DNA from: Apostichopus japonicus
Lineage: Eukaryota > Echinodermata > Holothuroidea > Aspidochirotida > Stichopodidae
NCBI RefSeq assembly: GCF_037975245.1
Contig: NC_092576.1
Coordinates: forward strand, 26,115,611 to 26,179,610
Length of the DNA stretch: 64,000 bases
Reading direction: 5' to 3'
Positions 13,848 to 57,960 of the stretch are shown here, one piece after another. A program made the position numbers and the translations under genes. The notes beneath the pieces are model-generated. The model was not told the DNA's origin and did not search any database. It saw nothing but the letters and a program-made list of their open reading frames with translations. Position 1 is the first letter of the stretch, and each line of letters begins with the position of its first letter.

Positions 13848-15675
13848 TGGGACGGTTACAACGTTGAGACGTGGCTGCAACCATGCGAGGTCAGGAGCGC
13901 AATAACCAAGCGCCCCCTTAAAACACAGCCGAAGAAGAACCACTGGCCGACAGTCGGGCATCCCAGATGTCTACAACGGCATGATGGGGTCAAGGTTGTG
14001 AGAGCCGACGGCACCACAAGCGAAAGGAAAGTTGTGTACATCAACGATCCATATAATGGGAATGTAAGTGTTTCAAGTGATAAGGGAAAATATCAGCAGT
14101 CTATCGGGTGTGGTCAATTTGACAAAACTTCGTATAACATGTCCTCTTCCTGTCTCTGACATCTGGTTCCAATACCTCCCAAAACTATTTTTAATCTTCC
14201 AAAAGATGGTTTATAAGTCATTTCATTTCATTTTGCATGTACCGTACGGTACCTACCACAAGACAACAAAAGTGAAGTTGTTTTAACAAAGATTCAAGTT
14301 CTTCAATGTGACATGTCGTACTTTAAGTATGACGTTAATAAGCTTCTTTCTGTTACCCCTTGACTTATAGGCTGACTTCACAGTCATATATATCATCATT
14401 TCTTTTTTCACTTTGAAGGTTTCTATGATTTGGAAGCAGTTTGACCTAATGGACATCTTTAGCATAATCTATGACATTCACAGAAGTGCCTGCAGTGCTA
14501 ATGTTACAGCGTCGTTTAAATTGTTACATTTGTAACTTAAATCGATGAATATTATGACAGTTAAAATACAGTAATGCAAATTGAACCTCAATAGAACTGT
14601 TAACTTATCGATCAAGAAGTAAGGCATTTGTTGGCCTAATAGAACACATACCTTAAAGTTTGCTCTGTCATTAAAATGTTTCTGAACCTTTACTCCACAC
14701 TGATTTCAAGTGTCTGTGATTGTTCTTATCCTCATCTGCTGTTTCATCTTAAAGGTAATCACAACCTGCAAACATACCCTACGGTATGGAGTGGACCCCC
14801 CCCCCCCAAGTGGAAACAACAACAAGACCAATCCAGGAGGCTGAGTTGGCAGACACTACTGAGGAAAGCGACACCGAATCACCCAGATCACCCTCACCCC
14901 CACCACCATGGGTTCCTCCAGTCGATTTCCCAACTACTTCCACGCCTAAACGACGAACTATTTTTTCTGTGGTTATCTTTCTACTTCAATACAGAAAATA
15001 AATGTCGTTACAGCTCGGCGTTTAGAAGGCGAGCATAAGCATGAATACAATACAGAGGGCTAGCACATATATAAACAACTTAAAATCGTTGGCGCAAGTA
15101 GCTATTAGTTACCAGAATATATAACTGTTCGTTGGTATTTGGAAGTTTGGATTACGAGATTCGTGATGGATACGTACACGCGTGTGCACGGGGCGAAATT
15201 ATCTATGTCAGTCAGTATTTAGGTCAAATTGACGAAGGAAATGATTGTATCGTATTGTGTCCCCTTGTGACTACCGTAATGTAGTGATGTAACTGAAACG
15301 TTTCGGTGAGCGTCAAATACACTTACTGTAGGATTGTTGGAAGCCATGGAAGTCTGTTTCCACGTTGAAATGAGTAGGTCTATGGTAACAAATATCGGAG
15401 TTGTGTGAGCAGCGATGTAGACAAGGTTATGTGTACTGCCACTTGGTGTGGTGAGGACTAAACTGGTGCGTCTTAAATTGAGGGTGAATGAGTGGGAATG
15501 AAGTTCTACTGAAATGATTTTGATTAGACTATACTTGCACGCCTAAACGACGAACTGCAAATAAAACGGTAAATTCCATTTTTTTTTTGATAAGCTTTTG
15601 CCGTGGTGCCGTGTCTATCTATCTATCCGATCTATCTATCCGATCTTTCTATGTATCTATCTATCTCCACCTCCT

Positions 15676-15708
<33 letters not shown>

Positions 15709-17787
15709 AGCAGGCTAGATAGCCAGATAGCTAGCTAGCTGTCTATCTAGCTATCTATCTGTCAACATTTTTTGCAAATGAGCCTATGCGCACATACAAT
15801 GACAGATTTTTATGAAACTTGGGCAGAATGACAATTGGTGGATTGGACATCATAAGTGGTGAAAAAAATTATGTTAAAGGTCATCTAGAAGTCATTAGGG
15901 GCCATTACGTTGAAAACACTAAAAAGCTTTCTTCTCCTACTGGTTGCATTGTTCAAGTTGGTGTTTGTCACATACTTGGATATTGCTTCCTTCAGGGTGT
16001 TCAGGAATGTTGGGTTAATGTCATTCAGGGGTCAGTTTGTGTCATTTAAAAAAAATGAAACTATTCAAAGACCTTCCCTCCCTGAAATAGCAATATATTT
16101 ATTTGAGATTTGGTCCCAATTATCGTTGAGTAGTAGTTCAGATAAGGTGTTCAGGAATTTTCATTTCGACTTAACTACTGTACCCTTGTCATTTAAGTTA
16201 AAACCTTGTTAACACATTCAAAATTCATGAACTGATCAACTGTAAAAGAGGGAGTAAGAGTGATACGGTCAACAGCCTATCATCACAGCATGGGATGAAT
16301 TATCCTTATCGTGCATGTCATATGTTCATACTACATTACAGTAAAACAAATTGTCAATCACAGAGTTAATAATGCATCATTGTCTTTCTCAATTTACCAG
16401 AAAACAAAGAGCACAGCTGCGACAGCATCCAAACGAAAAAATGCATCAACCGTGGCAGTGACAAAAAAGGTAAAACTCGAATGTCAGTCAAAATTATATA
16501 AGTTATTGTCCAAGTCATTATTTTGATTACAGGGTGCATCAGAGTGCACCACATGTTGTCATTTCAGTGTAAATATTAATGAATGATGTTCTCGACAAAA
16601 GCAAATATAAAAAAAAACACAAACAGAGCGATCAGTATGATGTGGAACATTATTTTTGAAAAATGAACTTCTTTGATTTTCTGTGGAAAATAAAACAACA
16701 CTCTGCATGAAATTGAACCAAACAACAAAGTCTCACAGGATGTCAATTTTAACTATGACTTAAACCAGTTTCAAATTAGAACTAATAATTTGATTAGCAG
16801 TGCATATTCCTAATTGCCTACATTTATACATCATATTACAATGTAATGCATCAAACTTTTCTTCATCTGCTTCAGGCTGCTAAAGTTCTCAGCCAAGGAC
16901 AACCCCCACTAGTGCAGAGTGTTGACCCTCAAGTGGGTATTACTCCCAGCTTGGTGACAGAGAAAGTGCTACAGAGGAGCAAAGCCTTGCTCCAACAGAA
17001 AAAGGATCAAGAAAATGAAGTTGGAGAAAAAAACAAAAATAATACACAGAACAGTACCGCCAATGAGCAAGGCAACGAGGAACATGAAGTTAGTGGGTTG
17101 AATGCAAACGCACCATCCAAAATTGTAAACGAAGAAATGATATGGCATGAATTGAGTAATCTTCGTGCTATGATAGAACAATTGATGCAAGAGATGGCAG
17201 CCTTGTCGGAGGATGTAGCACAAATCAAAGAGGCACAAAACCGAGATTCATTGCAAGAGACATCGGGCATTTTTTCTGAGAGCATGGGTGTGCTAAACGA
17301 TGTCCCGGACTATTTAGAGTCCTCCTTTCTACCAAGTGCCCCAACATCTACTCCGCCGTTGGTAAACACACAACGGCTGGTTGGCACCACCAGTAGTTTG
17401 AGCGAGCAGTCCTCTGAGTGTCTACCTCAGACTTTTTCACTTACAGCTGCCTCAACATCCAATCCGCCGCCGGTTATTACCTTGAACCAGCAGTCTGGGG
17501 CCACTGGGTTTCTTTCCGAGACATGCTTACAATCTCTTTCTTCTTATGCGGACCAACCTAGTACGATTGCACGTAAGCTTGCCAGGCAAATATTCAGCAG
17601 AGAGGAGATGGTAAGGTGCAATTGCAATGGCAGCCACGGGAGAGATGCCCTTCCGCCCCAGAAGCTGGATTTATTAAGGAAGTATTTATTTCAATTAACT
17701 CAAACCCCACCAGTAGGCAAGCAGTTGTTTGGAGAGCAGCAACAACTTCCTTGGATGCTTGCTTCCGCAGCAAGCGATCCTATCTAA
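13848..17787 (+). CDS. Gene A: BEN-domain protein (interrupted)
   Basis: Exons read on the plus strand are 13848-14063 (WDGYNVETWL ... HWPTVGHPRCLQ ... KVVYINDPYNGN, donor GTAAGTG), about 14755-14956 continuing at 15554-15568, 16401-16469 and 16876-17787. The last encodes 303 residues: a Gln/Ser/Thr-rich region, a short coiled coil around LRAMIEQLMQEMAAL, and a C-terminal BEN domain (IARKLARQIFSREEM ... GRDALPPQKLDLLRKYLF). BEN domains bind DNA and recruit chromatin factors, so a nuclear regulatory role is inferred. Exons 16401 and 16876 chain in phase with the PKRRTANKT end of the split exon. Two problems remain: a 576-bp repeat splits that exon, and the frame across its C12 run (near 14796) does not connect upstream to downstream. 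It may be a disrupted allele, a pseudogene or an assembly slip. Confidence 0.65.
14936..15553 (+). mobile_element. 576-bp repeat inserted in an exon of gene A, with 21-bp target duplication
   Basis: The element is 14957-15532. It is flanked by 14936-14956 and 15533-15553, a 21-bp direct repeat with one mismatch (ACTTCCACGCC... versus ACTTGCACGCC...). A second copy lies at 21830-22401. The start forms a short hairpin (TTTTCTGT/ACAGAAAA). There is no poly-A tail, no long inverted ends and no coding frame. The long duplication is more like target-primed LINE/SINE integration than a DNA transposon. Family unknown. Confidence 0.75.
15611..15762 (+). repeat. TATC and TA microsatellites
   Basis: A (TCTA/TATC)n stretch at about 15617-15668 is followed by (TA)n at about 15678-15706 and CTAG/CTAT variants to 15762, all within the gene A intron after the split exon. 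Confidence 0.85.
16876..17787 (+). CDS. Gene A last exon with BEN domain
   Basis: The exon follows a CTGCTTCAG acceptor and stays open for 303 codons to a TAA. The BEN block lies at about 17560-17700. Its features are a paired-helix IARKLARQIF, acidic EEM, CNCNGSHGRDAL, and a Leu-rich final helix. The preceding Ser/Pro/Thr-rich stretch has two similar pieces (SAPTSTPPLV and TAASTSNPPPV), each followed by a VGTTSSLSEQ- or SGATGFLSE-like segment, which suggests an internal duplication of about 60 residues. This is the best-supported exon of the gene. Confidence 0.7.
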   Translation, partial: AAKVLSQGQPPLVQSVDPQVGITPSLVTEKVLQRSKALLQQKKDQENEVGEKNKNNTQNSTANEQGNEEHEVSGLNANAPSKIVNEEMIWHELSNLRAMIEQLMQEMAALSEDVAQIKEAQNRDSLQETSGIFSESMGVLNDVPDYLESSFLPSAPTSTPPLVNTQRLVGTTSSLSEQSSECLPQTFSLTAASTSNPPPVITLNQQSGATGFLSETCLQSLSSYADQPSTIARKLARQIFSREEMVRCNCNGSHGRDALPPQKLDLLRKYLFQLTQTPPVGKQLFGEQQQLPWMLASAASDPI

Positions 17788-17934
17788 AGAAAACCCAAGT
17801 AGGCATTTAGTGGACTGGAGTCTGGAGCCCCTATGAATTTCACATTAATAGTACTTTTATTTCTTCCTTTTTTTCCTAAAGTACATTTCTTCTGTTTTGT
17901 GTGCAGAAACATTCATGTTGTTGTGTTTGTTCAT

Positions 17935-18400
17935 GTAAAAACATACAAGTTTAAAAATCTTAATATATGCATTGATGACACCTTTGTAACATTGTATGGG
18001 GAAATACTCATCCCACTTAATCGCTTGTTTATTCTTCAGAAAAAAGCTATTCGTATAATCACACTGTCAGACTATAGAGCTCACACTTCGCACCTCTTTA
18101 AAGATTTAAAAATTCTCACCTTGTCTGACATTCATAGATTTCAACTAGGTATTTTCATGTATAAAGTTAACAATAACCTTCTGCCCTCCTTGCTATGCAG
18201 ACACTCTAGCTTAAATTCAGACATCCATGACCATTTTACAAGACACTCCAGTAATTTACATTTGTATAGTATCCGCTCTAACATGCAAAAAAATCTTTCA
18301 GTTTCTCAGGTAACCAGTTATGGAATTATCTTGATAACACGGTTGTCCCATCACTTGCATTTTTTTCTAAAAATCTGAAGCATTTACTTTTATCCAATTA
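17935..18400 (+). mobile_element. 3' fragment of a CR1/L2-like LINE
   Basis: The frame contains the C-terminal block LFILQKKAIRIIT, YRAHTSHLFKDLKIL, LSDIHRFQLGIFMYK and NNLLPSLLCR, then H.HFTRHSSNLHL. This is the usual end of CR1/Daphne-like reverse-transcriptase ORFs. Everything upstream of the last part of the RT ORF is missing. It sits just behind gene A. Confidence 0.75.
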
Positions 18401-18661
18401 CTGAAAAGTTTCAGTTGGCTAAGGTAATACATATTTTTTTCGTTTTCATTTTTGTCATTACATATATGATAATTCTTTAAATTGTATAATGTTATCATAT
18501 GTAACGTAAGTACAGTTACATGGTTTATTTGTGTGTGCAACCTTTGTTTTATTTCATGCATTGTTCATGTGGGAATACGCATTATTTACCTCCTTGGCTT
18601 CCCACAGCTCCTTTGGTTGAGGGTTGGACACCCCTCACAGTTTCTAATAACTTTGACTTAA

Positions 18662-19130
18662 GGTAGCATACGCCCATTAAAAGCCCCATTGACTTACACA
18701 CTAAATCACAAAAGTGATGTGGTCTCTAAGTCTAGATAGAAGTTTTCACTAGCTAAACGCTACCCATCACCGGATAGCTGACAAGTTGGCCTTTCATGGC
18801 ACCATAAATTTTCCGTATCATGACCGTGTAGTTTTTTTGCTATCCGAGCCGGAAGTTTTCGTCACTTGTAAACAAACCTCTTCCCTCAGTGGTAAACAAA
18901 TTTCCTACGCTGCTCCCGGGAGGCCTAAAGGGGTCTAAAATTGCCTCAATTGACCCAATTTTCTCACCACATGTACTTCCATTCATGCTCTTCAACATGC
19001 AAGCCACAAAAAAAACTAGATTATGATTGATAACAGGTCACAAATGATGTTCTCCCGCTGCTTTTTGGCACTTTTCCTGAAGGAGAACAATCGAGCGGAT
19101 TGATATAGACTCTAATAGGAGTATGCCACC
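18662..19130 (+). mobile_element. 469-bp MITE, copy 3
   Basis: Third copy of the element at 740 and 3009, same orientation. It differs from them by a handful of substitutions and a two-base longer A run, so it is older. TTAA precedes it (18658-18661) and TTAC follows. Confidence 0.75.
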
Positions 19131-21829
19131 TTACTATTCAGTGTTCACAATAACTACTCGTCTGTGTGACACTTCATTGTTTCAAGATGTTTATTTTCAC
19201 CTTTGCGTGGCAGATTAAAAGCTCTATGAGGTAAATATGTATTTTAGTTGCATTACTTGTAAGATTTATTATCTCGACTGCAATTAACCTGTATTTTAAT
19301 AGTTGTTTGAAGGCCTCGCAACACAGAGTCCTCTAGGAGCAGAGGCCAGGCTAGTAGGTTATGGTTATAGCAGTGCTAAGTTACGTTCGTTGTTCCAACT
19401 ACGGAACAAGTTACAGTAAAAGAACTTATTTTACTTCTTCTACTGCATTTATCATTACATTTTAGAAGTAAGTAATTAATGGGCATCGCGGATGGCAAGA
19501 TGACCCTATAAGATGTTTATTGTTTGTATATGTTTCCATGTTCAAAGTTATACTCAGATTGGCACGTGTATTGTAAGCTTTGGAGCCTATCGAGATAAAT
19601 TACACTTAGGCTGTATGTGGTAGTGACTGCAGAGGTGTTCGTCAATAGCGCCCTCAGATAGTCCCCACCAAGGCATTGTTTTAAAATGGCCGCGCCCATG
19701 TGTCGTTAAACAGAACTGTTGCACACATAGTAGTGTAGGCGTTGGTACTAACTTGTATCCCACTGGCCTTAGTTAATTGTTTCAGTGATGTATAGGATGA
19801 GTTGTTTTAAACCAAATGTTTATTTAATTCTTGAGCTGCCATTTATATTAAGGGAAAATCCCCATATTTTTGGTATTACAGTTGGAAACAGATTAAGGGT
19901 TATTTGAAAGTGAGACCCCCCAGTGGTGATCCATTTTATACATTTTTATATCGTGTCTAAGATTAATTGTTATTGTTCTGTGGCCAGATTACTTTAAGCT
20001 CACTTATCCAACTTAAAGGAGCTTTCCAATTTTATTATATTCACTTATCCAACTTAAAGGAGCTTTCCAATTTTATTCTATTTAATTAAAGGAGTGTTAC
20101 CTTTGATGCATGGTGAAGCTATACTGCTTCTTGTTTCTTTAGAAACTATTCTAGTGTTTTTCTTATTTTCTTCTTTCACATTTAGAGCTCGCTAGAGAGG
20201 AGCCATTAATATACTGCCTACCACAATACTTATTGTTTGCCTCAGTCATTTGTGTCACCCATGGGCGTCACCACACCGACAACCTTACCACTCCCGGCTT
20301 TACATTCCTTTTTTTTTTCTTTTCTTATTGTCTGTCTTTGTACGGGATCTGCCTCGTAAGAGCCTCGGCTTTCTCAGACCTCCTCCACTTTCACATACAT
20401 TTTCTTCTATTATTGTGTTATATATTTTGAATGTGGAAACTAAATGAAATGAAAATGTATATCTGTGCAAGCTCCAGGCGCAGCAGCCACCCATTTTTTT
20501 TGTGGATTGGCTAACACGGTTTGTTTATATTTTGTCAGCAGAGTTTACGCTCTTTGATCACGTGACTTTATCAAGCGTATTCTATATTCTTATCCTTTCT
20601 TTTACTAGTCTTCGTTACGTTTCTTAGTTTTATTATGCTCCTATTTGGTTTTATTGTGCTCTTTCAGTTTTGTTATTTTGTTTTTTACTTGCTTTAAATT
20701 TCTTCTTTTTATATCTGTGTTTTAATAATAATACTAAATCCGAGACTTGAATTGCCCATAGATATGTTTCATTCATTGTTGATTTTGATCCCTCATTATT
20801 AAATATATATCCTATGGAAAATCGTCAAAATTCGTGATCATGTGTTTATCATATATAGTGAGGAGGTACAGTCCATCACTCCTGGACGTTTTGTTTGATA
20901 TGATCGTTAAATCAGTATTTATTGCTTTGACAATAGTAATAACGAAAATCGATATTACGCTTAAACTGATTTTTTTTATTCCTCCCCTCTGCGACAATAA
21001 GGCTGCTATCGAAGCAGCTCCACGCATAAGCAAAAGAGCAGAAACCGGTCTAGCTTTTTCATTTAGAACCAAAGTAATCTTTTAAAAACCCTGGTCACGG
21101 TAATCCATCAAATATTTTGGACCATATTTACCAATAAACAGTAACAACCCCCGGTATACTATGATAACAGCCCATCTTTTGCAATTAATTACCAAAGATG
21201 ATTCGTGAACTTCCTAAAAATAATAAAGGTTCACCAGCTAACCTCTGTAACGTCAGATAGTGGCACCGCCATTTTTTTCAAAAGAACATCAATTATTTTT
21301 TCTTAACGGGTCCCAGGCAACAACCTCAATGACCCACACAGGATTTATTCACGTGAAAATAGAAAAGGGACCCAAGGTTCTCAATTTGAGACAATTTTCA
21401 GCGAATATTCGACAGCAAATTCAGTTCAGAATAAACGTTAAGATTTTACTTGCTTGCCACCGGTGAACGAACTGTTTTTAATTCATAACAACATCATTTA
21501 TCTGCTTATATCATGTATTCATGTCAAACTACAATAACAATAACAGTTCATGTCAAACTACAATAACAGTAATGCGGACATGAAGATCATGTATAGCTTC
21601 GTACAGAACAGTGGCACTTCAATCAAAAGATCATCACAATGAAGTCATTTACTGACCTGAGTGCTGTTCAATGTCATTGTAGTGTTTTCAAATACCTCAT
21701 TTCGTAAAAATTACGGAGGCGCTAATATCAGTGTTTTCATTTCAATTTTTGTTATACCTTTCCGATATATTTATTCAAAAAGGGCCATTATTTGGTAGCA
21801 TGCAAACTACATTGCGTGTAAGAATTGGA
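19131..21829. other. No gene recognised; short tandem duplication
   Basis: AT-rich DNA. A 37-bp block at 20000-20036 is repeated at 20041-20077 with a 4-bp spacer. A smaller doubled block, TTCATGTCAAACTACAATAA, occurs near 21520 and 21548. Open frames at 20233-20494 and 20812-21085 overlap on opposite strands and show no motif. Confidence 0.4.
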
Positions 21830-22401
21830 ACTATTTTTTCTGTGGTTATCTTTCTACTTCAATACAGAAAATAAATGTCGTTACAGCTCGGCGTTTAGAA
21901 GGCGAGCATAAGCATGAATACAATACAGAGGGCTAGCGCATATATAAACAACTTAAAATCGTTGGCGCAAGTAGCTATTATTTACTGTCCCAGAATATAT
22001 AACTGTTCGTTGGTATTTGGAAGTTTGGATTACGAGATTCGTGATGGGATACGTACACGCGTGTGCACGGGGCGAAATGATCTATGTCAGTCAGTATTTA
22101 GGTCAAATTGACGAAGGAAATGATTGTATCGTATTGTGTCCCCTTGTGTCTACCGTAATGTAGTGATGTAACTGAAACGTTTCGGTGAGCGTCAAATACA
22201 CTTACTGTAGGATTGTTGGAAGCCATGGAAGTCTGTTTCCACGTTGAAATGAGTAGGTCTATGGTAACAAATATCGGAGTTGTGTGAGCAGCGATGTAGA
22301 CAAGGTTATGTGTACTGCGACTTGGTGTGGTGAGGACTAAACTGGTGCGTCTTAAATTTAGTAGGAATGAAGTTCTACTGAAATGATTTTGATTAGACTA
22401 T
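21830..22401 (+). repeat. 572-bp repeat, second copy
   Basis: Same element as at 14957-15532, same orientation, with a few substitutions and small indels. Both copies begin ACTATTTTTTCTG and end GATTAGACTAT, which fixes the element ends. No clear target duplication is visible here. Confidence 0.7.
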
Positions 22402-23099
22402 CCAAAAGGGATCAAATGTTTACGATACTACGCTCGGATATTTCCTAAAAGATAGCGATTTTTTTCTTTTGCAAAATCTTGCTTTAATCCTCCCCCACCC
22501 TCTAATAAACAAAATGCAGAAATGCTAGGTTTTTCAGTTAATTAATACCCGGCTATACAGTCAGTACGGTAATCTTACAACGAAGTTCAATGAGGTCTCA
22601 TGTGGGTTCCTGAAGTTCCCAACTATATGGGCCTTACTCATTCATGGCCACATGTGAACGTACATTTAAAACTAAGGGGTCTATTTATCTCAATGGTAGT
22701 GAAAGACTTTGGGAAAATGATAATTACCACCGGTAAATCTATTTTTATAGAGTAAGAGTGTCACCAGAGGGATATTAAAGGTTTGATACCCCCCACCCCC
22801 CCCCCAAAAAAAAGCGTTGGTGCGCTGTCTTTCTCCGCCTGGGAAAATACTCTGGCTTGCCCTGAGATTTCTGCATTACCGACATCTTGCGCCCCAGCTT
22901 ATGTAAGAATTAATTGTTTTCGTCTAATGTACTGTGTACTTGGTCGCCTGGAAGGTATCAGCTGTCAACCCGGTCATAGAGAAATAGGTTAATAGTTCCG
23001 AGGTCAAAGCACCCTGGTCAGAACAAACCGGGCAGTTCTCCGTGAATAATTTCGACTGAATCGTAATTGCATTGCAAGGACGATTTGTAAGTAGACAGC
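22402..23099. other. No gene recognised
   Basis: Featureless DNA with a short C run and A run near 22790. It forms the upstream flank of the transposase unit that follows. I searched it for a terminal inverted repeat matching the DNA after 24305 and found none. Confidence 0.35.
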
Positions 23100-23104
23100 T
23101 CCAT

Positions 23105-23210
23105 GGTTGCACCAATGAGATGGTTGCACCAATGAGATTTAAGTACAAAATTGGCGGTAAGATTGAATCTTAAAAAGGAAACAGAACTAGGATGTGGAAC
23201 CCTATATAAG
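23105..23210 (+). promoter_or_regulatory. Histone-like promoter: tandem CCAAT boxes and TATA
   Basis: A 17-bp unit GGTTGCACCAATGAGAT is exactly doubled (23105-23121, 23122-23138), giving two CCAAT boxes 17 bp apart. A reversed one, ATTGG, follows within TTGGCGGTAA (23151-23160), which resembles an E2F site. TATATAAG lies at 23203-23210, so a start is expected near 23235, about 40 nt before the ATG at 23277. This arrangement is typical of replication-dependent histone promoters. Function is inferred. Confidence 0.55.
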
Positions 23211-23276
23211 GACATGCGAGAATGAAAATAATCACTGTATTTACACTCGTTGAGCTCTTCACAGTACACATTTAAA

Positions 23277-24246
23277 ATGGCTCGCTTGTCTCAGCAGTTA
23301 CGTCGTAGAATTGTTCAGTTTTCCGAAGATGGAAAGAGCAACACGGAAATCCGTGATGTTCTATTGGAGGAAGGTGTTTTGATCCACCTAACGACAATAC
23401 GAAATACAGTTACGCGATGGCGTGTTCACCATACCATCAGAGACCTTCCCAGAAACAGAGCCAGAGGTAAACTTGGTTGAGAAGAGTTGCAGTATATTGA
23501 TCAACTCATATCTCAAGATCGTGAGATCACCTCTGTCCGTATCCAGAAAAGGATAGAAGAAGAACTTGGATTGGCTGTCACATCGAGTGCAGTTAGAAGA
23601 GCCCGTAGACAGAAACTTCAGTGGGTTTGCTCCATGCCATGAGATGCATCGAAACGAAGGATCTTTTCTTGAACGCCATCTTCACAGATGAATGTTCCGA
23701 AGAAATAGACCATACGGCAAAGATACAGTTCCGGAGAAGAGGGGAGTTGCCGAGACTTATCGGGAAGCCGAAACACCCAACGATTGCACGTGTGGGCTGG
23801 GATTTCCTTCAGAGGTGCTACGGATATCATCATCTTTGATGGGATAATAAACAGCGAGTTCTATTGCAATAATCTTTTGCAGCATGGCCTACTTCCATTT
23901 GCTAGAGTCGCCTTTCCAGATGGTAATTATCGTTTTATCCAGGACAATGATCCAAAGCACACCAGCCGGTTCACCAAGGCCTTCATGGCCGCAAACAACA
24001 TCCCTTGGTGGCAAACCCCTCCCGAAAGCCCAGACCTAAATCCGATAGAGATGGTGTGGCATGAGATGAAGCACTGCTTGCGGGTCAGTGGAGAAAAAGC
24101 CTTTCAACTTAGAAGATTTGAAGAGGATGATTGCGGAATTCTGGCATGAACGTATTACACCAGAGAAGTGCCAGAGATACATCGCACATATACAGAAAGT
24201 CCTGCCGAAGGTGTTGGAGTTTGAGGGCAAGGCTACCGGACATTAG
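23277..24246 (+). mobile_element. Tc1/mariner (DD34E) transposase, decayed
   Basis: Intronless transposase of about 320 codons. It starts MARLSQQLRRRIVQFSEDGK with helix-turn-helix motifs for end binding (NTEIRDVLLEEG, VTSSAVRRARRQKL). The catalytic core follows: IFTDECS, VWAGISFRGATDI, QDNDPKHTS and PESPDLNPIEMVWHEMK. Counting from the first D of QDND to the E of NPIE gives 34 residues between, as in Tc1. It ends FEGKATGH and TAG (24244-24246). One in-frame TGA near 23479 and three frame changes (near 23635, 23800 and 24110) prevent expression of a whole protein. No terminal inverted repeats were found. Its promoter and 3' end look like those of a histone gene. Confidence 0.85.
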
Positions 24247-24263
24247 TGGGAGTGTCGAATTTC

Positions 24264-24303
24264 AACGGCTCTTTTAAGAGCCACCAAATATTCCAGAAAG
24301 AGC
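24264..24303 (+). promoter_or_regulatory. Histone-type 3' stem-loop and downstream purine element
   Basis: GGCTCTTTTAAGAGCC (24267-24282) is a six-pair stem with a four-base TTTA loop, preceded by CAAC and followed by ACCAAA. This matches the consensus of replication-dependent histone mRNA ends bound by SLBP. CAGAAAGAG (about 24294-24302) lies a few bases after the expected cleavage point and resembles the histone downstream element CAAGAAAGA that pairs with U7 snRNA. The stem-loop begins 20 nt after the transposase stop codon, a normal distance for a histone mRNA. Confidence 0.8.
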
Positions 24304-24403
24304 GTTCTTCTTCTCCTTTATACATGCAAATTGTCTGTAGCATTAGTAGCATATTTGGAATAATGCATGACTTTTTGGTTCCTCTTATTCCTTTCATCAT
24401 CAG

Positions 24404-27400
24404 ATGGCATCGAAGACAATGGTTGTTTATATGCTTACTGTACTGGAGACAAGAGGATCAAATTATTTTGCTTATGCAGTATCAGAAGACGGCGACATAC
24501 ATGAAATGTTCGTCGTCAGCATTGGGAAGTCGCTGGCAAAAACGCTAGCAATCAAGTTGAAAAAGGAAAATTTTTTGGTCCTAGCGAACTTTTCCTTGAA
24601 TAAACAAGAGGAGTGTTCCTATCTGCGGTTGGCTGCCGACAAATCAAAAGTAAGATTTTACCAGATTCACAATTGGTTCAAGTGATACTGACACTTATGT
24701 ACTTTTACCAGATCTCTGCAGAACATTTTCCCTACAGCAGGTATCAACCATTTTATACAATTGAAAGTTCAAACCATTCAGTTCAACCGTAAGTTGGGTA
24801 ATAAAAGACCCTCTTCAGGACTTAAACAGTTGGCTCTCCCAAACCTTTCGTATTTTATGACTTCTATTTATTCATATCAGTCTGCTCATTTTCATATGTA
24901 TATAGACAACATTGAAGATTCCAGATACATCCAGACATATACTACAAATTATACACAAATGAACTAGGATTGGCAGACTAGCTTCATCTGTATCCACAGA
25001 CATCACCTGAATAGTGTGGATTGGTTTGAATGGCGAAAAGTGAAAAACTAGTGGAGGCAAAAACATGAGGGATATATATATGTAAAAAGACATGTTGCAT
25101 GTTTCTGAGATTTGAGAAACTATTGTTTCAAAATTTAGTTGAAAGATGTTCTGAAAAACATTTTCAAATATATGTGATAGCTAGCAACACAAAACTTACT
25201 TGCAAATAGTTTTGCTTTGCAAGTAAGTATCTCACAAACTAAATGCTACAAAACTAGTGAGAGTACTTTTGAATAACCAATTGTTCACATTTTTCCCATT
25301 AAAATGAAAGATCTTCATAACCATTGATCACCTTTATTGTACCCATACCACCAGTGAAGAACAACCATCTATTTCTTATTTACAATAGGTTTTCAAAACA
25401 TCGAAATCATTTCCTCTTCCAAAAGAAAAACTAGAGAAGTTTTTCAACCCAACAATCTGCACCATCCCTGATGCTTTAGCGTCACCAAAGAAGAGGAAGC
25501 TTTCCGTTGAAGGAAAAGTAGCAAAGGTAATTTAATATGTTTAAAGTATCTAATCAAAATAATATGTTAAAGGTGGAACAGGAAAAGGATTCACAATGCA
25601 GTCATAGCTAAGTGGAAAGTTATCTTTTAATGAAACTTTTATTTGGAAATCACAAAGCTACACCAAATTCACTACATCACAAAACTAACAAACACTGTGT
25701 GTATGTGTCTGTGAGGATTTAAGACATCATCTTTGTATAAAGTGGTACTAGATATAACTAATATTCAGCTGTTACAATGATGGGTAAATACTCCATAATG
25801 AGTAAATGATATAAAAACACCAACATTTAACTTAAAATAGTGAGAAGTACAGCCACAGTTCATATACGCAAACAGGAGCTTGCTCCAAAGCTTTGCATTG
25901 ACATAGCAGCTCAAATAGTTCTCATTGATACCTTTTGTACATGTACCAGTTCTGCTAATTATCACCGTGATAAATATGTATGATTTGGGGTTATGACTGC
26001 ACAGTGTATTTCTATTAAAGATTGCAGTACACTACATTGCCTAGAAAATATATGTAAAGCAATTACAGTACTCAACGTAATTTTCAAGGGATACAAATAA
26101 CATCTAATACATTTTCCAGTTTGTTCAGGTGTACCACTTAACATAATAACAACAAACATTGCTGTAGTGTATTCACAATTTTCACAAAATGCACTTTTCT
26201 GTTCATTTGTTAGGTGTATGATATGGAAGAGGGTCCCACGTGGAAGAGGCGTGATATTCTGCTCGCAGATGATATTACGAAAAAAAAAAATAGCTGCTGT
26301 AAACTGTGGGGGAGCATTCGGAAAAAATTACAGAAAAAACACTGGATCGATTATTAAAATTTCCAATGTAGAGGTAGATGTCAACAACGACAGGCATCAG
26401 CTGAAGTCTACCACATTGACAGCGCTGGAGGTAGATATTTATACATATCTGTTCTCAATGATCGTTAACATGAATGAATCTGACAGTGTTCACACTACAT
26501 TCAATTTATTTTTAGCAATTTGATAAATAGAATACACCAAAGGGGAAATATTGTATTAAGATAAAAAAAATGAAATACATAAACACAGTGGAATATTAAG
26601 AGGTATCAAGGGGAGGGTGGAAATTTCAGCAGACAATAAGATGAAGAATAACATAGAACAGTTGATCTGACTTTAGAACTATTTTGCATTTAAGCCACCC
26701 ACCTATGTAAACATAAATTTCTCAGAGAAGAGAGGTACATTCCCGAGGCGACATGGCATCCTGGCACTGTTACAATGTTAAAGATAGACAAAAATTTCTC
26801 AAGGGGGAGAACACCAGGATGACATTCCTTGCAGAAATGACAAACAAAGATTTTGTCCCAGATGTCAACTATTTTAGATATATGCCACTGTATAAACATA
26901 CTTAAGTTGATTGCATAATTTAACATCTCAAGAACAGAAACCAAAGGTCTCTCAATGATTTTTCTAAGCTGCTATGATAGAATTTTTATTAAGTAGCCTA
27001 TTGCCTTTTTTTTATTCTTTGAACCACACAGATTGCGACATATCATTCTAGTCATAGCTAAGTACTAATTTCTGCTCTCTCTATTGTGCACAACCCTAAA
27101 AACTGCATTCTAAACCATGTCAAATGACCCTACATATTTCAGTATCAAAATTCAATTGTGTCTTTCAGCTTCTGGCTATAATGTAATACAACAAATTATA
27201 AAGATAACTCAAGATTAAAAACCTGAAAAACCATAAACCAAGTATGAACATAAATGCTCATGACAACTTCTTTCCAATTTCTTCACAGATAACAGGAAAA
27301 CAGGTTTCAGCTGAGGCAAGCGACACCATCATTGGTATAGATAACGAAGAGTAAGTTCAATTGTCATGTATAATTTTATCATGACACATGAGCATTAGTG

Positions 27401-29656: not shown

Positions 29657-32600
29657 AAAAGAAAATGCTGTTACAACATCTGGAAGAGACTACCAACTCG
29701 TCAGCCTCCCCAGTTCCAGCAAAGCGAGCACGAAAAGCATCGAGGCACCTTCAGAGCTACCTAGTGAAGGATGCTACTGCTAGCAACGTGGCAACTCGCC
29801 AGTCTCCAAGGGTATGTTAACCATAGTTCTTTTGTATCATTCATAACTTAAATAGAAGTGTGAATAAAAAGAAATGTACGTGTTAGTAATTGTAAGGGAT
29901 ATCAGCAGAGTTTGAAATTTTAATATTTAATGGTTAACAAGGAAGTCCTTGATCTATCAAGCAACATTTCATGATTTCACAATCTTGCAAAAGAAACCAC
30001 GTACTACTGGGCAACATCCATATTTTATGTTATTTGTATCTTGTTCATGGAAGGCTGTTGAAGGGCAATGATTTACTTACAAGTGAACCATGGAGCATTG
30101 TATGGGCCTGATGCTTGTGCTTTTTACGTGACCCGCCATGCGGGATACAAAACGTCACGGCCAAACGGCACTACCGAACCATCCCATTCTGACAAACGAA
30201 ACTAAGGTCTAGCGAGCCAAAAAAACATGCGCCCGCCGACCTGCAGAGACAAAACGCCCAACCCCCCCCCCCACTGAAACATTCAAAAACGTACAGAAGG
30301 ACGACCCGCACGCAGCGAAACGAAAAACCCCTCCCCAGCACACCAGCGTCCAAAAAAGGCAGCCCCAGATAAACGGCGAAAATCGCCTTCAATCTGAAGG
30401 CGAATGTCGGACTTCACCGCCTCCAGGACTGCCTGCCAACTGGCAAATTTCCCCCTAAAAACCAAATTACACCTATTCCGCCAAACATGTTTTTTTACAA
30501 TCGAGCAAACAAAAATGATGCGGTGCAACACAGCTACCGAACAAACTGGAGGGTCTACCCCATATAAAATAAAGCCCTGCCCTACCGACCATGAACGGTC
30601 TCCCGTAACACGGTCGGTCCAGGTCTGGAACCACTCCCATAAGTTTACTACAAAGTAACAATGCCAAAAAACATGAGCAGTACTCTCTAAGCTGTCACAG
30701 CCGGTCCTAGGGCACAGTCCATCACCCAATCGCCAATGATATCTTTTTAGGTTGGTCACCAAGGCACCGTGTGCAACTCTCCATGCAAGATCACGGAGCC
30801 TGTAACCATTCAGCTTTGAATGCACCGAACGCCATACTTCGGCAGAATGACGTCCCTGGACAAAAGTTGCATTCAAGGCCTTATCCCTCAACGAACTGTG
30901 AACGAGGGCCGGCTGTGACAGGTCAACAGGGGGCAACTCAATCAGAGCGGAGCAGATGACACGCACCACCCTGTTTGGAGTACTACTATGCGGTTCTCTG
31001 TTGCTAAACAGCGCCGGGACCCATCGACGCAGGTGCAAACCGCCCCAAAAACGTACAAAATATGAACAAGGCAACCCTGGGTCAGTTACCGCTACAAACA
31101 ACTGCTTAAATAACAAAAAGGTCAATTTACTTCCCAGATGAACCACCCCTAGTCCCCCCTTCTCCAGTTTTTGGTACAATACCGCCCTCTTGACAAGCTC
31201 TGTACCCCCAGACCATATGAATGAAAAAATCGCCCTCTCCAACCGTACCAGGACGCGACGCGGAATAGGGTACACCGCGCCCGGGTACCACAAGATGGGC
31301 GAAACGAAACGATTAATAACAGTGACTTTCCCCAAGATCGAAAGCCAGCGGGTGCCAAAGGTTTCGAGTCTGCTCTGAAATACCTCAGCCCTCTCGTTCC
31401 AGGTGACATCACAAGGTGCATCGTAGCCGAACCATATACCATTAATTTTGATATTCTGATCCGACCACGACGCACCGAATGGTAAGTCTCTGTATCTCCA
31501 GCTACCAAGACGAAGGCCCTTTGTCTTTTCTGGATTCAACTTCGCCCCGGTAGCTCTCTCAAAAATAGATAGATCCTGCGAGAGTGCGCGAAAGGAGCCG
31601 AGACTCGAAACAATACATGTCACGTCATCTGCATATTGAGCGCATTTCACTTTGGCACCCCCTGGCACAACGAATGGAACAAGTTTGGAGTCCCTTTCCA
31701 AAAGACGAGAGAGGGACTCGCTAAACAAAACATAAAGTAATGGAGACAGAGGGCACCCCTGGCGCACCCCCCTCTCTACGTTAAAAACCTCCGAACAAAA
31801 CCCATTTACGATAACAGAACTGAAACTTTGTTCATACAAAACAGAAATCCATTTACGAAAATTTGGGTGCAACTGAAACGTCTCCAATACATTCATTAAA
31901 AAACCGCGATCCACCATGTCAAAGGCCTTCTGCTGGTCCAGAGACACCAATGCACATGGCAGATCACGCTCAATAACAAAGTCGGTCAAGTCGCGCATCA
32001 ACCACAAGTTCTGCTGGATGCAATGACCCTTCACTGCACAAGTCTGGAGATCACCAACAAGATGCGGCATAGCCAGTGCAAGGCGGTTGCACAAAGCCTT
32101 AGCCAGCAACTTGTAGTCCACATTTAGCAAGGTGATCGGACGCTTGTTATGGGGATCCAAGGGGTCCCCAGACTTTGGCAGCAAAGTAATCATGCCCAGA
32201 CGTTGACTTTGGTTTAACAGTCCGTTTTGGAAGGCGTCCTCGAAGACGGCTCTGATGTCGGGTCCTATTATTGCCCAGAAGGTTCGGTAGAACTCCCTCG
32301 GAAGCCCGTCCGAACCCGGGGACTTGCCATTCTTCATCTTCGAAAGCGCCTTCCAAAGCTCAACAGTGGTTATTCCGCCCCCCAAAATATCATTGACATC
32401 GTGGGGAACGGTTTTTGAGATTCCCCTCAATAAATCAGACTGTGCCGACAAGTCGACATTGCCACGCGTAAACAAACTCGAATAATACTCTTTATATACG
32501 CGGACAATGCCGTGAGGGTCACTGACCACGGTCCCATCGGTAGCACGCACAGACGGGACGCGTCTGTCACCCGCCGATGAGCTAACGGACTGGTAAAACC

Positions 32601-44500: not shown

Positions 44501-44992
44501 AAGAAGACCGACACGACCACAACAGCAGGGAACAAATCTCGCTCAAAACAGTCGCCTCTCAAATGGAACAAGGAGGCTGATGAGGCATTCAGACAATTGA
44601 AGACTCTGTTGTCATCCTCTCCTGTCTTGGCATATCCCCGGTTTGACAGAGAATTTGTTCTTGAGATAGACGCTTCACTGAAGGGATTGGGCTGCTGTCT
44701 GCTCCAACGTGATGATGCTGGCCTTCTCCACTCAATTGCGTATGTAAGCAGAGGGTTACGTGATGCCGAGAAAAATTATTCAGATTTCTCAAGCTTTAAA
44801 TTGGAACTTCTGGGTCTGAAGTGGGCAGTCAGTGACAAGTTCAGGGAGTACTTGATGGGATCTCGTTGTTTGGTCTTGACTGATAACAACCCATTGGCCC
44901 ACTTAGACAATGCGAAGTTGGGAGCAACAGAACAGAGGTGGGTAGCACAACTTGCTTCATTTAATCTTGATATTCAGTACAGACCAGGCAGA

Positions 44993-46040
44993 CTGGAGAA
45001 GGGTGGGTTAGGGGTGGTTCATCTGGAAAGTAAGTTAACTTGTTTGTTATTTAAGCAGTTGTTTGTAGCGGTAACTGACCCAGGGTTGCCTTCTTCATAT
45101 TTTGTACGTTTTTGGGGCGGTTTGCACCTGCGTCGATGGGTCCCGGCGCTGTTTAGCAACAGAGAACCGCATAGTAGTACTCCAAACAGGGTGGTGCGTG
45201 TCATTTGCTCCGCTCTGATTGAGTTGCCCCCTGTTGACCTGTCACAGCCGGCCCTCGTTCACAGTTCGTTGCGGGATAGGGCCTTGAATGCAATTTTTGT
45301 ACAGGGACGTCATCCTGTCGAAGTATGGCGTTCGGTGCATTCAAGGCTGAATGGTTGCAGGCTCCGTGACCTTGCATGGAGAATTGCACACGGTGCCTTG
45401 GTGACCAATCTGAAAAGGTATCACTGGCGATTGGGTGATGGACTGTGCCCGAGGACCGGCTGTGACAGTTTAGAGAGTACTGCCCATGTTTTTTGGCATT
45501 GCCCCTTTGTTTTGAACTTGTGGGAGTGGTTTCAGTCCTGGACCGACCGTTTAGCGGGAGACCGTTCCTGGTCGGTAGGACAGGGTTTTGTTTTGTATGG
45601 ATTAGATCCTCCAGTTTGTTCCGTTGCTGTGTTGCAGCGTATTATTTATGTTTGTTCTGTTGTAAAAAAACTTATTTGGAGGAATAGATGTGATGTTGTT
45701 TTTAGGGGGAAATTCGCCAGTTGGCAGGCAGTCCTGGAGGCGGTGAAGTCTGACATTCGCCTTCAGGTTGAAGGCGATTTTCGCCGTTTATCTATGGCTG
45801 CCTTTTTTGGACGGTGGTGTGCTGGGGAAGGGTGTTTTGTTTCGCTGCGTGCTGGTCGTCCTTTTGTAGTTTTTTAATATTTCAGTGGGGGGTTGGGCGT
45901 TTTGTCTCTGCAGGTCGGTGAGCGTATGTACTTTTTTTGGCTCGCTTGACCTGAGGTTCGTTTTTCAGAATGGGATGGTTTGGTAGTGCCGTTTGGCCGT
46001 GACGTTTTGTATCCCGTATGACGGGTCACGTAAAAAGCAC
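44993..46040 (+). mobile_element. Truncated L1-Tx1 LINE inside the gypsy element
   Basis: The last 1.05 kb of the LINE family at 30120-35157: the C-terminal RVT zinc-finger region (CPRTGCDSLESTAHVFWHC) to the stop at 45877, 3' UTR, and the structured end TCACGTAAAAAGCAC at 46040. Both sides are gypsy pol sequence. The 5' truncation is typical of incomplete reverse transcription. The junction shares CTGGAGAAG between host element and LINE, so microhomology may have joined the 5' end. The copy is intact over what remains. Confidence 0.88.
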
Positions 46041-54479: not shown

Positions 54480-55648
54480 GAGGCTCCAGGTATCGATAGA
54501 CTGATATCAACATTGTTAATAGAAATTGCGGAGGAAATTAGCTCTCCACTAAGTTTCATCTTCAACAAAAGCTTTAAGGACCATCAAGTTCCGGACGATT
54601 GGAAAAAAAGCTAATGTTTCGCCATTATTCAAAAAAGGATTGCGAAGTGATTCTGCTAATTATCGCCCAGTTAGTCTCACCAGCCAGGTCAGCAAAGTAT
54701 TCGAGTCAATACTGAAGGATGCCATCGTGGATCATTTAGCTAAATTTAACCTGATTGGGTCTACTCAAAATGGATTTAGAAGTGGCCGATCCTGTTTTAC
54801 GAACTTACTGTTGTTCCTGGAAAGTGTTACAAGCCTTATGGATGAGGACTTACCAGTTGATATAATTTATTTAGACTTTAGTAAAGCATGCTTGTCTAAT
54901 TAAAAAGTTAAGAAGTCATGGTATTTCGGGTCACGTTTCCGAGTGGATAGAGGCATGGTTGACAGGTCGCCAGCAAAGAGTTCTCGTCAACGGAGCTGAG
55001 TCGGAGTGGAAGCCGGTAATTAGCGGAGTCCCACAGGGTCTGTTTTAGGCCCCATATTATTCTTGATTTATATTAACGACATTGACGATAATATTGATAG
55101 TAATATCCTTAAATTTGCCGATGACACTAAGATTTGGAGAATGATGGCATCACCTGTGGACGCTATGATCATGCAAGAGGACTTGTATAGACTGAAAGGC
55201 TGGTCGACTGAGTGGCACATGTTGTTTAACCCTGGAAAGTGTAAGTGTCTCCATGCTCGCCGTAAGAATATGCACTACGATTATTATATGGGTGACACAT
55301 GTATTACTTCAATAAATGAAGAAAAAGATTTAGGAGTGCTTATCACTGCCAGTATGAGTCAAAGTCAGCAATATGCGAAGGCCGTCAAGACAGCAAATCA
55401 AGTACTTGGAATGATCAAGCGATCTATTTGTTATAAAGAACAGGACATTCTTATCAGGTTGTACAAGTCTCTCGTCCGTCCACATCTAGAGTACGCTATT
55501 CAAGCTTGGTGTCCATATTTACTAAAAGAGATTGTTCTGCTTGAGAATGTTCACAGGAGATTCACAAAGATGATTCCAGGATTACATCATCTCCGATACG
55601 AGCAACGACTTAAGAAGTCTCAAGAATCTCACTTCACTTGAGACAAGA
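54480..55648 (+). mobile_element. CR1-like LINE fragment (reverse transcriptase)
   Basis: Starts inside the RT (APGIDR-like, near 54482) and contains NYRPVSLTSQVSKVFE, NGFRSGRSCFTNLL, IIYLDFSKA, ISGVPQG, ILFLIYINDID, LKFADDTKIW, WHMLFNPGKCKCL, EEKDLGVLI and LVRPHLEYAIQAWCP. The order is that of CR1/Jockey-type elements. There are at least three frame changes (near 54610, 54895 and 55040) and both ends are missing. Its 3' side is cut by the L1-Tx1 copy at 55652, just after the RLK..LTSLETR block. Confidence 0.85.
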
Positions 55649-55651
55649 CGT

Positions 55652-57960
55652 GTGCTTTTTACGTGACCCGTCATACGGGATACAAAAACGTCACGGCCAA
55701 ACGGCACTACCAAACCATCCCATTCTTACAAACGAAACTCAGGTCAAGCGAGCCAAAAAAGTACACACGCCCACCGACCTGCAGAGGCAAAACGCCCAAC
55801 CACCCACTGAAACATTAAAAAAACCACAAAAGGACGACCAGCACGCAGCGAAACAAAACACCCGTCCCCAGCACACCACCGTCCAAAAAAGGCAGCCCCA
55901 GATAAACGGCGAAAATCGCCTTCAACCTGAAGGCGAATGTCAGACTTCAACGCCTCCAGGACTGCCTGCCAACTGGCAAATTTCCCCCTAAAAACACATC
56001 TATTCCTCCAAATAATTTTTTTTTTACAACAGAACAAACATAAATAATACGCTGCAACACAGCAACAGAACAAACTGGAGGATCTAATCCATATAAAACA
56101 AAGCCCTGTCCTACCGACCAGGAACAGTCTCCCGTTAAACGGTCGGTCCAGGACTGAAACCACTCCCACAAGTTCAAAACAAAGGGGCAATGCCAAAAAA
56201 CATGGGCAGTACTCTCTAAGCTGTCACAGCCGGTCCTCGGGCACAGTTCACAGTCACCCAATCGCCAGTGATACCTTTTCAGATTGGTCACCAAGGCACC
56301 GTATGCAATTCTCCATGCAAGATCACGGAGCCTGCCACCATTCAGCCTTGAATGCACCGAACGCCATACTTCGACAGGATGACGTCCCTGTACAAAAATT
56401 GCATTCAAGGCCCTATCCCGCAAGGAACTGAGAACGAGGGCCGGCCGTGACAGGTCAACAGGGGGCAACTCAATAAGAGCGGAGCAAATGACACGCACCA
56501 CTCTGCTTGGTTTGCTACTATGCGGTTCTCTGTTGCTAAACAGCGCCGGAACCCATCGACGCAAGTGCAACCCGCCCCAAAAACGTACAAAATATGAACA
56601 AGGCAGCCCTGGGTGAGTTACCGCTACAAACAATTGCTTAAATAACAAACAAGTTAACTTACTTCCCAGATGAACCACCCCTAGTCCCCCCTTCTCCAGT
56701 TTTTGGTACAACACCGCCCTCTTGACAAGCTCTGTACTACAAGTCCATATGAATGAAAAAATCGCCCTCTCCAACCGCACCATGACGCGACGCGGAATTG
56801 GGTACACCGCGCCCGGGTACCACAAGATGTGTGTAACGAAACGATTAATAACGGTGACTTTCCCCAAGACCGAAAGCCAGCGGGTGCCAAAGGTTTCGAG
56901 TCTGCGCTCATATACCTCAGCCCTCTCGTGCCAGGTGACATCACAAGGTGCATCGTAGCCGAACCATATACCATTAATTTTGATATTGTGATCCGACCAC
57001 GACACACCGAATGGTAAGTCTCTGTATCTCCAGCTACCAAGACGCAGGCCCTTTGTCTTTTCTGGATTCAACTTCAACGGTAGCTCTCTCAAAAATACAT
57101 AAATCCTGCGAGAGTGCGCGAAAGGAGCCCAGACTCGAAACTACACATGTCACGTCATCTGCATATTGAGCGCATTTCACTTTGGCACCCCCTGGCACAA
57201 CGAATGGAACAAGTTTGGAGTCCCTTTCCAAAAGACGAGAGAGGGACTAGCTAAACAAAACATAAAGTAATGGAGACAGAGGACACCCCTGGCGCACCCC
57301 CCCCCCCTCTCTACGTTAAAAACCTCCGAACAACACCCATTTACGATAACAGAACTGAAACTTTCTTGATATAAAACAGAAATCCATTTACGAAAATTTG
57401 GGTGCAACTGAAACTTCTCCAATACATTCATTAAAAAACCGCGATCTACCATGTCAAAGGTCTTCTGCTGGTCCAAAGACACCAATGCACATGGCAGATC
57501 ACGCTCAATAACAGAATAACGCCCAGAAGGTTCGGGAGAACTCCCTCGTAAGCCCGTCCGAACCCGGGGACTTGCCATTCTTCATCTTCGAAAGCGCCTT
57601 CCAAAGCTCAACAGTGGTTATTCCGCCCTCAAAAATATCATTGACATCGTGGGGAACAGTTTTTGAGATTCCCCTCAATAAATCAGCCTGTGCCGACAAG
57701 TCGACATTGCCACGCGCAAACAAACTCGAATAACTCTTTATATACGCGGACAATGCCGTGAGGGTCACTAACCACGGTCCCATCAGTAGCGCGCACAGAC
57801 GGGACGCGTCTGTCACCCGCCGATGAGCTAACGGACTGGTAAAACCTCAGTGAAGGGCGCTCCTCGACCTCCACCGCTTCGACAGGGGCCCTGACGCGGG
57901 CACCGTGGTACTTTTCATCGAGATAAGTCTGCAAAGCGATGACAGCCGAAGGGTCGCCAA
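55652..57960 (-). mobile_element. Truncated L1-Tx1 LINE, second partial copy
   Basis: Same family as 30120-35157. It covers the 3' UTR, RVT zinc finger, reverse transcriptase and a piece before it, and ends with TAAAAAGCAC at 55652. It is damaged: the RT part is in several frames, and a stretch of about 280 bp present in the full copy (its 32.0-32.3 kb) is absent at about 57513. The 5' side stops abruptly at the GC-rich block near 57960. It shares the CCCGT/ACGGG end hairpin with the copy at 44993, so these two belong to one subfamily. Confidence 0.85.

Follow-up and report, generated by a model that had tools for sequence, protein, structure and literature searches.

A putative clade of Tc1-type transposons with a histone-type 3′ end on the transposase gene in Apostichopus japonicus

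In the maturation of histone mRNAs, SLBP binds the histone stem-loop, the U7 snRNP binds a downstream element, and CPSF73 cuts between the two; SLBP also acts in translation, and histone mRNA is limited to S phase. Elements of the Tc1/mariner type usually consist of a single gene within 1 to 2 kb. For such cut-and-paste elements expression in S phase is useful, since the donor site can then be restored from a sister chromatid. The biology of histone 3′ ends is treated in PMC2781718, PMC5636114, and PMC7026596, and PMC6303110 describes 3′ ends of this type as restricted to the mRNAs of replication-dependent histones.

We consider it likely that A. japonicus harbors a clade of Tc1-type transposons in which an intronless transposase gene carries a histone 3′-end cassette and would yield an S-phase mRNA without poly(A). 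The window, a stretch of 64,000 nucleotides of A. japonicus DNA, holds a dead copy of that clade. Like metazoan replication-dependent histone genes, the transposase genes of the clade are intronless and have a stem-loop, an ACC, and a purine-rich downstream element; unlike them, they specify a transposase. The enzyme resembles that of Tc1/mariner elements of the Sleeping Beauty type: it matches structure 5cr4 (E 1.7e-24), contains a DDE_3 domain, and has 34 residues between the second D and the E, as counted on the transposase sequence. One subfamily, subfamily 2, also has the TA target and the CAGT ends of that group. What sets the elements apart from Tc1/mariner is the histone-type 3′ end of the transposase gene and, in subfamily 2, a length of 9.0 kb and the presence of a further gene with a BEN domain.

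The window copy and its flanking features

Within the 64-kb window, the sole Rfam match at gathering level was to the histone 3′ stem-loop model RF00032 (positions 24262 to 24308; 40.5 bits against a gathering score of 34). The preliminary description had reported a histone stem-loop and a U7-type purine element beyond the transposase stop, and both were confirmed: the stem-loop GGCTCTTTTAAGAGCC starts after a spacer of 20 nt behind the TAG at 24244 to 24246, is directly followed by ACC, and lies about 10 nt ahead of the purine element CAGAAAGAG (Table 1). In the minimum-energy fold of the window sequence, part of the stem paired with the purine element, while the centroid fold was the histone stem. 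Folding-energy z scores (−0.80 for the window, +0.47 for subfamily 2, and −3.13 for subfamily 3) were not decisive.

Table 1. Features of the element in the window (positions refer to the 64-kb stretch)
Feature	Positions	Strand	Evidence and remarks
Companion gene fragment, first conserved segment	13836-14069	+	tblastn; 53% to subfamily 3, 32% to subfamily 2
Blocks of homology with the subfamily 1 element copy at C1:11.24-11.26 Mb	14448-24338	+	blastn blocks
Companion gene, BEN-domain part, decayed	16884-17799	+	blastn blocks, open frame of the C1 copy
Promoter-like block	23112-23209	+	CCAAT at 23112 and 23129, TTGGCGG at 23151, TATATAA at 23203
Transposase pseudogene, Tc1-type	23277-24246	+	intact C1 relative of 339 aa, DDE_3
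Histone 3′ stem-loop GGCTCTTTTAAGAGCC	24267-24282	+	6-bp stem, 4-nt loop; RF00032, pair counts
Purine element, U7-type histone downstream element CAGAAAGAG	24294-24302	+	sequence reading, spaced pattern
ACATGC motif	24322-24327	+	55 nt from stem-loop start; common to A. japonicus histone genes

An intact transposase gene in the window was ruled out by stops in all three reading frames and by additional frame shifts. Because of these stops, the window copy is unable to specify a transposase; it is dead, and the action of the gene, whatever its nature, falls to other copies. Apart from small indels and a deletion of ∼55 bp, it is colinear with its intact relative and hence gives no sign of an intron, so that the intronless transposase of the preliminary description stood as to structure, but as a pseudogene. 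Between the window and the C1 copy, homology extended over long blocks of 93 to 97% identity and two short blocks of 83 to 89% (blastn), interrupted by insertions (e.g., at about 18569 to 20311). A separate dispersed repeat with relatives on contigs C17 and C7 adjoins the right side of the element (24339 to 25975). Another repeat is present in three window copies (30116 to 31493, 44992 to 46040, and 55643 to 57025), which are 91 to 98% identical to the related locus L044.

Upstream of the ATG at 23277, the window transposase is preceded by CCAAT, TTGGCGG, and TATA motifs. At least two CCAAT boxes in either orientation, TTGGCGG, and TATA occurred together in 20 of 12764 overlapping 180-nt segments of the 64-kb window (both strands, true site counted), a co-occurrence that is uncommon but by itself a weak argument. 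All three kinds of motif were present in the window and C1 copies, that is, in two of the three copies of subfamily 1, the C17 copy being without the promoter region. The block was not found in subfamilies 2 and 3 (one copy of each examined) and was rejected as a family-wide feature. In subfamily 1 it may act as a genuine promoter, but it is no conserved promoter of the histone type. The earlier picture of a transposon packaged as a histone gene was supported in its 3′-end half, and more broadly than claimed, but its promoter half did not extend to the whole family.

Related transposases and conservation of the cassette

The whole genome (672 Mb in 35 contigs) was searched for relatives. Its COX1 gene, on a contig of 16.1 kb, gave Lys (AAA) and Met (ATA) under the invertebrate mitochondrial code at positions where Asn and Ile are conserved, with TGA read as Trp; AAA for Asn together with ATA for Ile is typical of the code of echinoderm and flatworm mitochondria, and the protein has an echinoderm look. 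RF00032 matched at least 71 places at E values up to 0.001 (75 candidates scored), four of which exceeded the cut-off: the window, C17:24843883, C1:11247548, and one H2A gene on C12. Three of the four best RF00032 stem-loops of the genome thus sit behind transposase copies. Since a match below the cut-off also turned up in one of 14 control genomes, that of the bacterium Lactococcus, weak RF00032 matches alone prove nothing. A short stem-loop pattern had 624 matches in the 672 Mb, against 5 for the reversed control; most of the first 100 listed lay in an array on C1, two units of which were read and hold histone genes. When the pattern was extended by the spaced purine element, 31 matches remained, against 0 for the reversed control. 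They comprised eight transposase loci, six retroelement copies that were fetched, one H1 gene, four further loci with a retroelement core, and four loci without a recognized frame (L025, L026, L027, and L038), the other eight lying outside the inspected set. The C1 transposase copy is missing from the 31 matches because its purine element differs. A search for virus-borne relatives gave 61 pattern matches in viral contigs, none of which was confirmed.

At the DNA level, the window element had two close copies, on C1 (95 to 97% identity) and C17 (90 to 93%), and further related ones, and protein searches with the transposase returned at least 42 and at least 48 matches among the best candidates scored. 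From 24 of the 25 loci of the 42-match search we read 25 sequences, leaving out C10:3.52 Mb and a few weak matches particular to the 48-match search. As the preliminary description had proposed, these family copies were scanned for the stem-loop, and the cassette was found 3′ of the coding end in 14 of the 25, in four lineages and on seven contigs. Its carriers are the window, L039, and L040 in subfamily 1; L042, L043, L045, L046, and, with decayed stems, L066 and L068 in subfamily 2; L056, L057, and the partly decayed L060 and L061 in subfamily 3; and L062, a decayed representative of a fourth lineage that is 55% identical to subfamily 2. Stems were decayed in 5 of the 14 cassettes (L060, L061, L062, L066, and L068). 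No cassette was detected within 130 nt of the coding end in L041, L044, and L069, which form one close lineage, or in L059 and L063, and in six others (L058, L064, L065, L067, L070, and L071) the match breaks off before the coding end is reached. L058 and L059 are parts of a single locus, separated by ∼3 kb, and the match of L065 ends at a GTAAG; this lineage thus appears to contain an intron. Those transposase genes that are intact and have a cassette are without introns.

L056 and L057 lie on an 8.5-kb segment present on both C1 (21311000 to 21319500) and C17 (26973000 to 26981600) with no mismatch and three gaps, an apparent duplicate that is either the product of a recent duplication or an effect of assembly. 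As one duplicated segment, they are to be counted once among the 14 carriers. Intact transposase frames were present at C1:11247613, C1:21314479/C17:26977075, and C3:15820809, so that subfamilies 1, 2, and 3 are all represented. Of the subfamily 2 copies, that on C3 alone is open along its whole length, and those on C20, C23, and C9 hold stops. PF13358 (DDE_3) scored above its cut-off in all four transposases submitted (L039, L043, L041, and L057).

The three subfamilies are only distantly related, with protein identities of 68, 45, and 46% for the three pairs. Their fourfold-degenerate sites agreed in 25/79, 22/57, and 19/62 cases, close to the chance level, and silent sites thus seem to be saturated. 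The stem-loop and purine element, 41 nt in all, agreed at 30/41, 33/41, and 31/41 positions. For the 80 nt past the purine element, the corresponding values were 50, 51, and 50, within the range of shuffled sequence for all three pairs (means, 48.6, 48.6, and 46.7; maxima, 55, 54, and 53). As judged by these alignments, the comparisons show that the cassette belongs to the transposases and is kept across deep divergence.

Stem pairs were counted in 8 of the 14 cassettes, corresponding to seven distinct rows, with the duplicate L056 and the five decayed-stem cassettes left out; all 42 pair cells were standard pairs, a count that, with the eight best-kept cassettes chosen, speaks for kept copies only. 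In two of the six stem pairs of these eight, both partners changed (CG to UA and UA to CG). The paired percentage, the number of cells with two-sided changes, and the covariation score were each reached by 5 of 500 shuffles, in a control that ignores the relatedness of the rows; the number of two-sided pairs (260 of 500 shuffles) and that of pair types (465 of 500) were not unusual. Sliding the 3′ side lowered pairing to 21 to 60%.

Downstream of the purine element, each of the 13 transposase loci whose cassette was located by the script (14 given) had ACATGC at 52 to 59 nt from the start of the stem, and L068, which the script missed, also shows the motif in its sequence. The motif stood at 55 nt in six of six retroelement copies, at 55 to 56 nt in five of five histone loci (L004, L005, L006, L008, and L024; recognized by eye, two of them from one array), and at 54 to 63 nt in six of seven other repeats. 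The transposase cassettes thus share the ACATGC spacing of A. japonicus histone genes. We know of no earlier description of this motif. The purine element of subfamily 3 reads CTGAAAGAG; that of the C1 copy, the sole intact copy of subfamily 1, is altered in its last part and reads CAGAAATCG instead of CAGAAAGAG.

Mobile elements that carry the cassette

Element boundaries were found for subfamily 2. The C3 copy has 31-bp terminal inverted repeats (TIRs; 30 of 31 positions identical), measures 8,999 bp from CAGT to ACTG, and has TA outside. At its right end, 14 of 39 other rows begin (query positions 1086 to 1087), and at its left end 10 of 48 other rows stop at query position 1189 and one at 1192. 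Pairing of the ends yielded two near-full copies, of 9.4 kb on C20 and 9.3 kb on C23, a copy of 12.6 kb on C7, and six short copies of 3.2 to 4.1 kb (two on C12 and one each on C7, C5, C13, and C1). Copies on three contigs were ∼98% alike. None of the six short copies had a transposase among the protein-search matches listed, and they look like internally deleted derivatives that would have been mobilized in trans. By these features subfamily 2 is a TIR-bounded, 9.0-kb mobile transposon of the Tc1 type, and its boundaries, as read from the copies, show that in this one lineage the cassette moves as part of an element with TIRs at its ends. For subfamilies 1 and 3 the search gave no TIRs, nor were the element termini of subfamily 1 found, for which the C1 flanks searched for a TIR pair sit in a locally repeated region.

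A companion gene accompanies the transposase. In the C1 copy of subfamily 1, a frame on the transposase strand scored 29.2 bits, above the Pfam cut-off for the BEN domain. In subfamily 2, an exon-like and a BEN-like frame lie upstream of the transposase on the opposite strand, the latter with 23.0 bits, slightly under the cut-off of 23.2. Subfamily 3 and L041, which has no cassette, also contain the first companion segment, and the BEN part turned up solely in subfamilies 1 and 2. These Tc1-type elements thus look like two-gene elements. Tc1, BEN domain, and transposase are named together in one paper.

The cassette was also present in a retroelement that looks Penelope-like, with six copies fetched (L031 to L036) and an RVT_1 match of 35.2 bits in L036; no related solved structure was found for its reverse transcriptase (RT) at E 0.01. 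It shares the stem-loop, purine element, and ACATGC with the transposases, but its enzyme is unrelated to theirs and its cassette lies between two frames, not at the end of the element. In L036, a 191-aa frame (903 to 1478) is followed after ∼25 nt by the cassette (stem-loop at 1504), and the RT frame starts at about 1561. Relative to L036, the other copies begin at 893, 1068, 1149, 1177, and 1311, and all extend beyond the cassette; hence, the 5′ ends vary and the cassette is internal. The whole first frame is found only in L034 and L036. Since the copies are 98 to 99.9% alike, conservation of their cassette cannot be judged. Dispersed repeats without a recognized frame (L007, L022, L025, L026, L027, and L028) contain the cassette as well, and some of them are related over ∼1.1 kb. 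It is somewhat more probable than not that at least two unrelated kinds of mobile element have taken over the whole histone cassette in this animal and give rise to poly(A)-minus, SLBP-bound, and replication-coupled mRNAs. Transposons would thereby have a means, not described before, of timing themselves to the replication of DNA.

Origin and possible role of the cassette

If the cassette acts as it does in histone genes, the transposase pre-mRNA would be cleaved by the SLBP/U7 machinery of the host, and the resulting mRNA would end in the stem-loop without poly(A). Its synthesis and translation would fall mainly within S phase, and it would be degraded when that phase ends. The element would probably profit from excision during its own replication, when the gap can be refilled from a sister chromatid or the element can move ahead of the fork; either way, copy number would rise. 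The U7 snRNA itself gave no match in a search of the genome, and a U7 pattern had 8 matches against 12 in the control. A U7 cluster on C20 was discarded as a repeated stretch with no U7-like hairpin, and none of six candidate stretches matched a U7 model.

Taken by itself, the window copy, single and dead as it is, would fit a lone insertion that came to lie by chance beside a histone pseudogene. Either such a flank or family copies without the stem-loop had been named beforehand as evidence against a histone-type transposon, yet the cassette recurs at the same place in the 14 carriers on seven contigs and moves inside the TIR-bounded element. Together with the 31 extended-pattern matches against none in the control, these observations led us to reject a chance match or flank, and we regard a chance insertion as extremely improbable. 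It is also unlikely that the transposases have become a domesticated host gene family with histone-like regulation and are no longer transposons. The small number of copies, the several intact frames, and the failure to find TIRs in subfamilies 1 and 3 would agree with domestication, but subfamily 2 has its 31-bp TIRs with TA, nearly identical copies on three contigs, and internally deleted copies without a listed transposase, and subfamily 1 includes decayed copies, that of the window among them. Similarly unlikely is the view that the stem-loop has been retained for mRNA stability or SLBP-stimulated translation and that ordinary polyadenylation forms the 3′ end. The part that SLBP plays in translation would allow this, and the altered purine element on C1 would fit; however, although cleavage of a histone mRNA would remove both the purine element and ACATGC, these are for the most part conserved, which argues for cleavage at the histone site.

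Less easily dismissed is the possibility, to which we give somewhat less than even weight, that several transposons took the cassette independently from host histone genes and that function keeps it there. On a tree of seven rows, the cassette label needs two changes, a single change sufficing in 2% of bootstrap trees, and its occurrence in the RT element and in repeats without an open reading frame implies that it was acquired more than once in the genome. Against this, three of the four inner branches of the tree are open, so that one gain with subsequent losses fits too, and the shared spacing fits descent equally well. The cassette of the transposases may thus have been inherited or gained more than once, alternatives that the seven-row tree does not separate. 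Repeated capture would alter the origin of the cassette, not its function.

Among the titles and opening abstract lines of the open-access literature, outside which most subscription papers lie, we found no report of a histone stem-loop on a transposase; PMC3846280 makes no mention of histone, stem-loop, or hammerhead. A clade of transposases with the cassette retained across divergence at the level of saturation would break the rule that such 3′ ends belong to histones only. Its natural cassette variants could help to dissect histone 3′ processing, including the part of ACATGC. If the reading of a Tc1-type clade with a histone 3′-end cassette is true, it would connect transposition with S phase directly at the molecular level.
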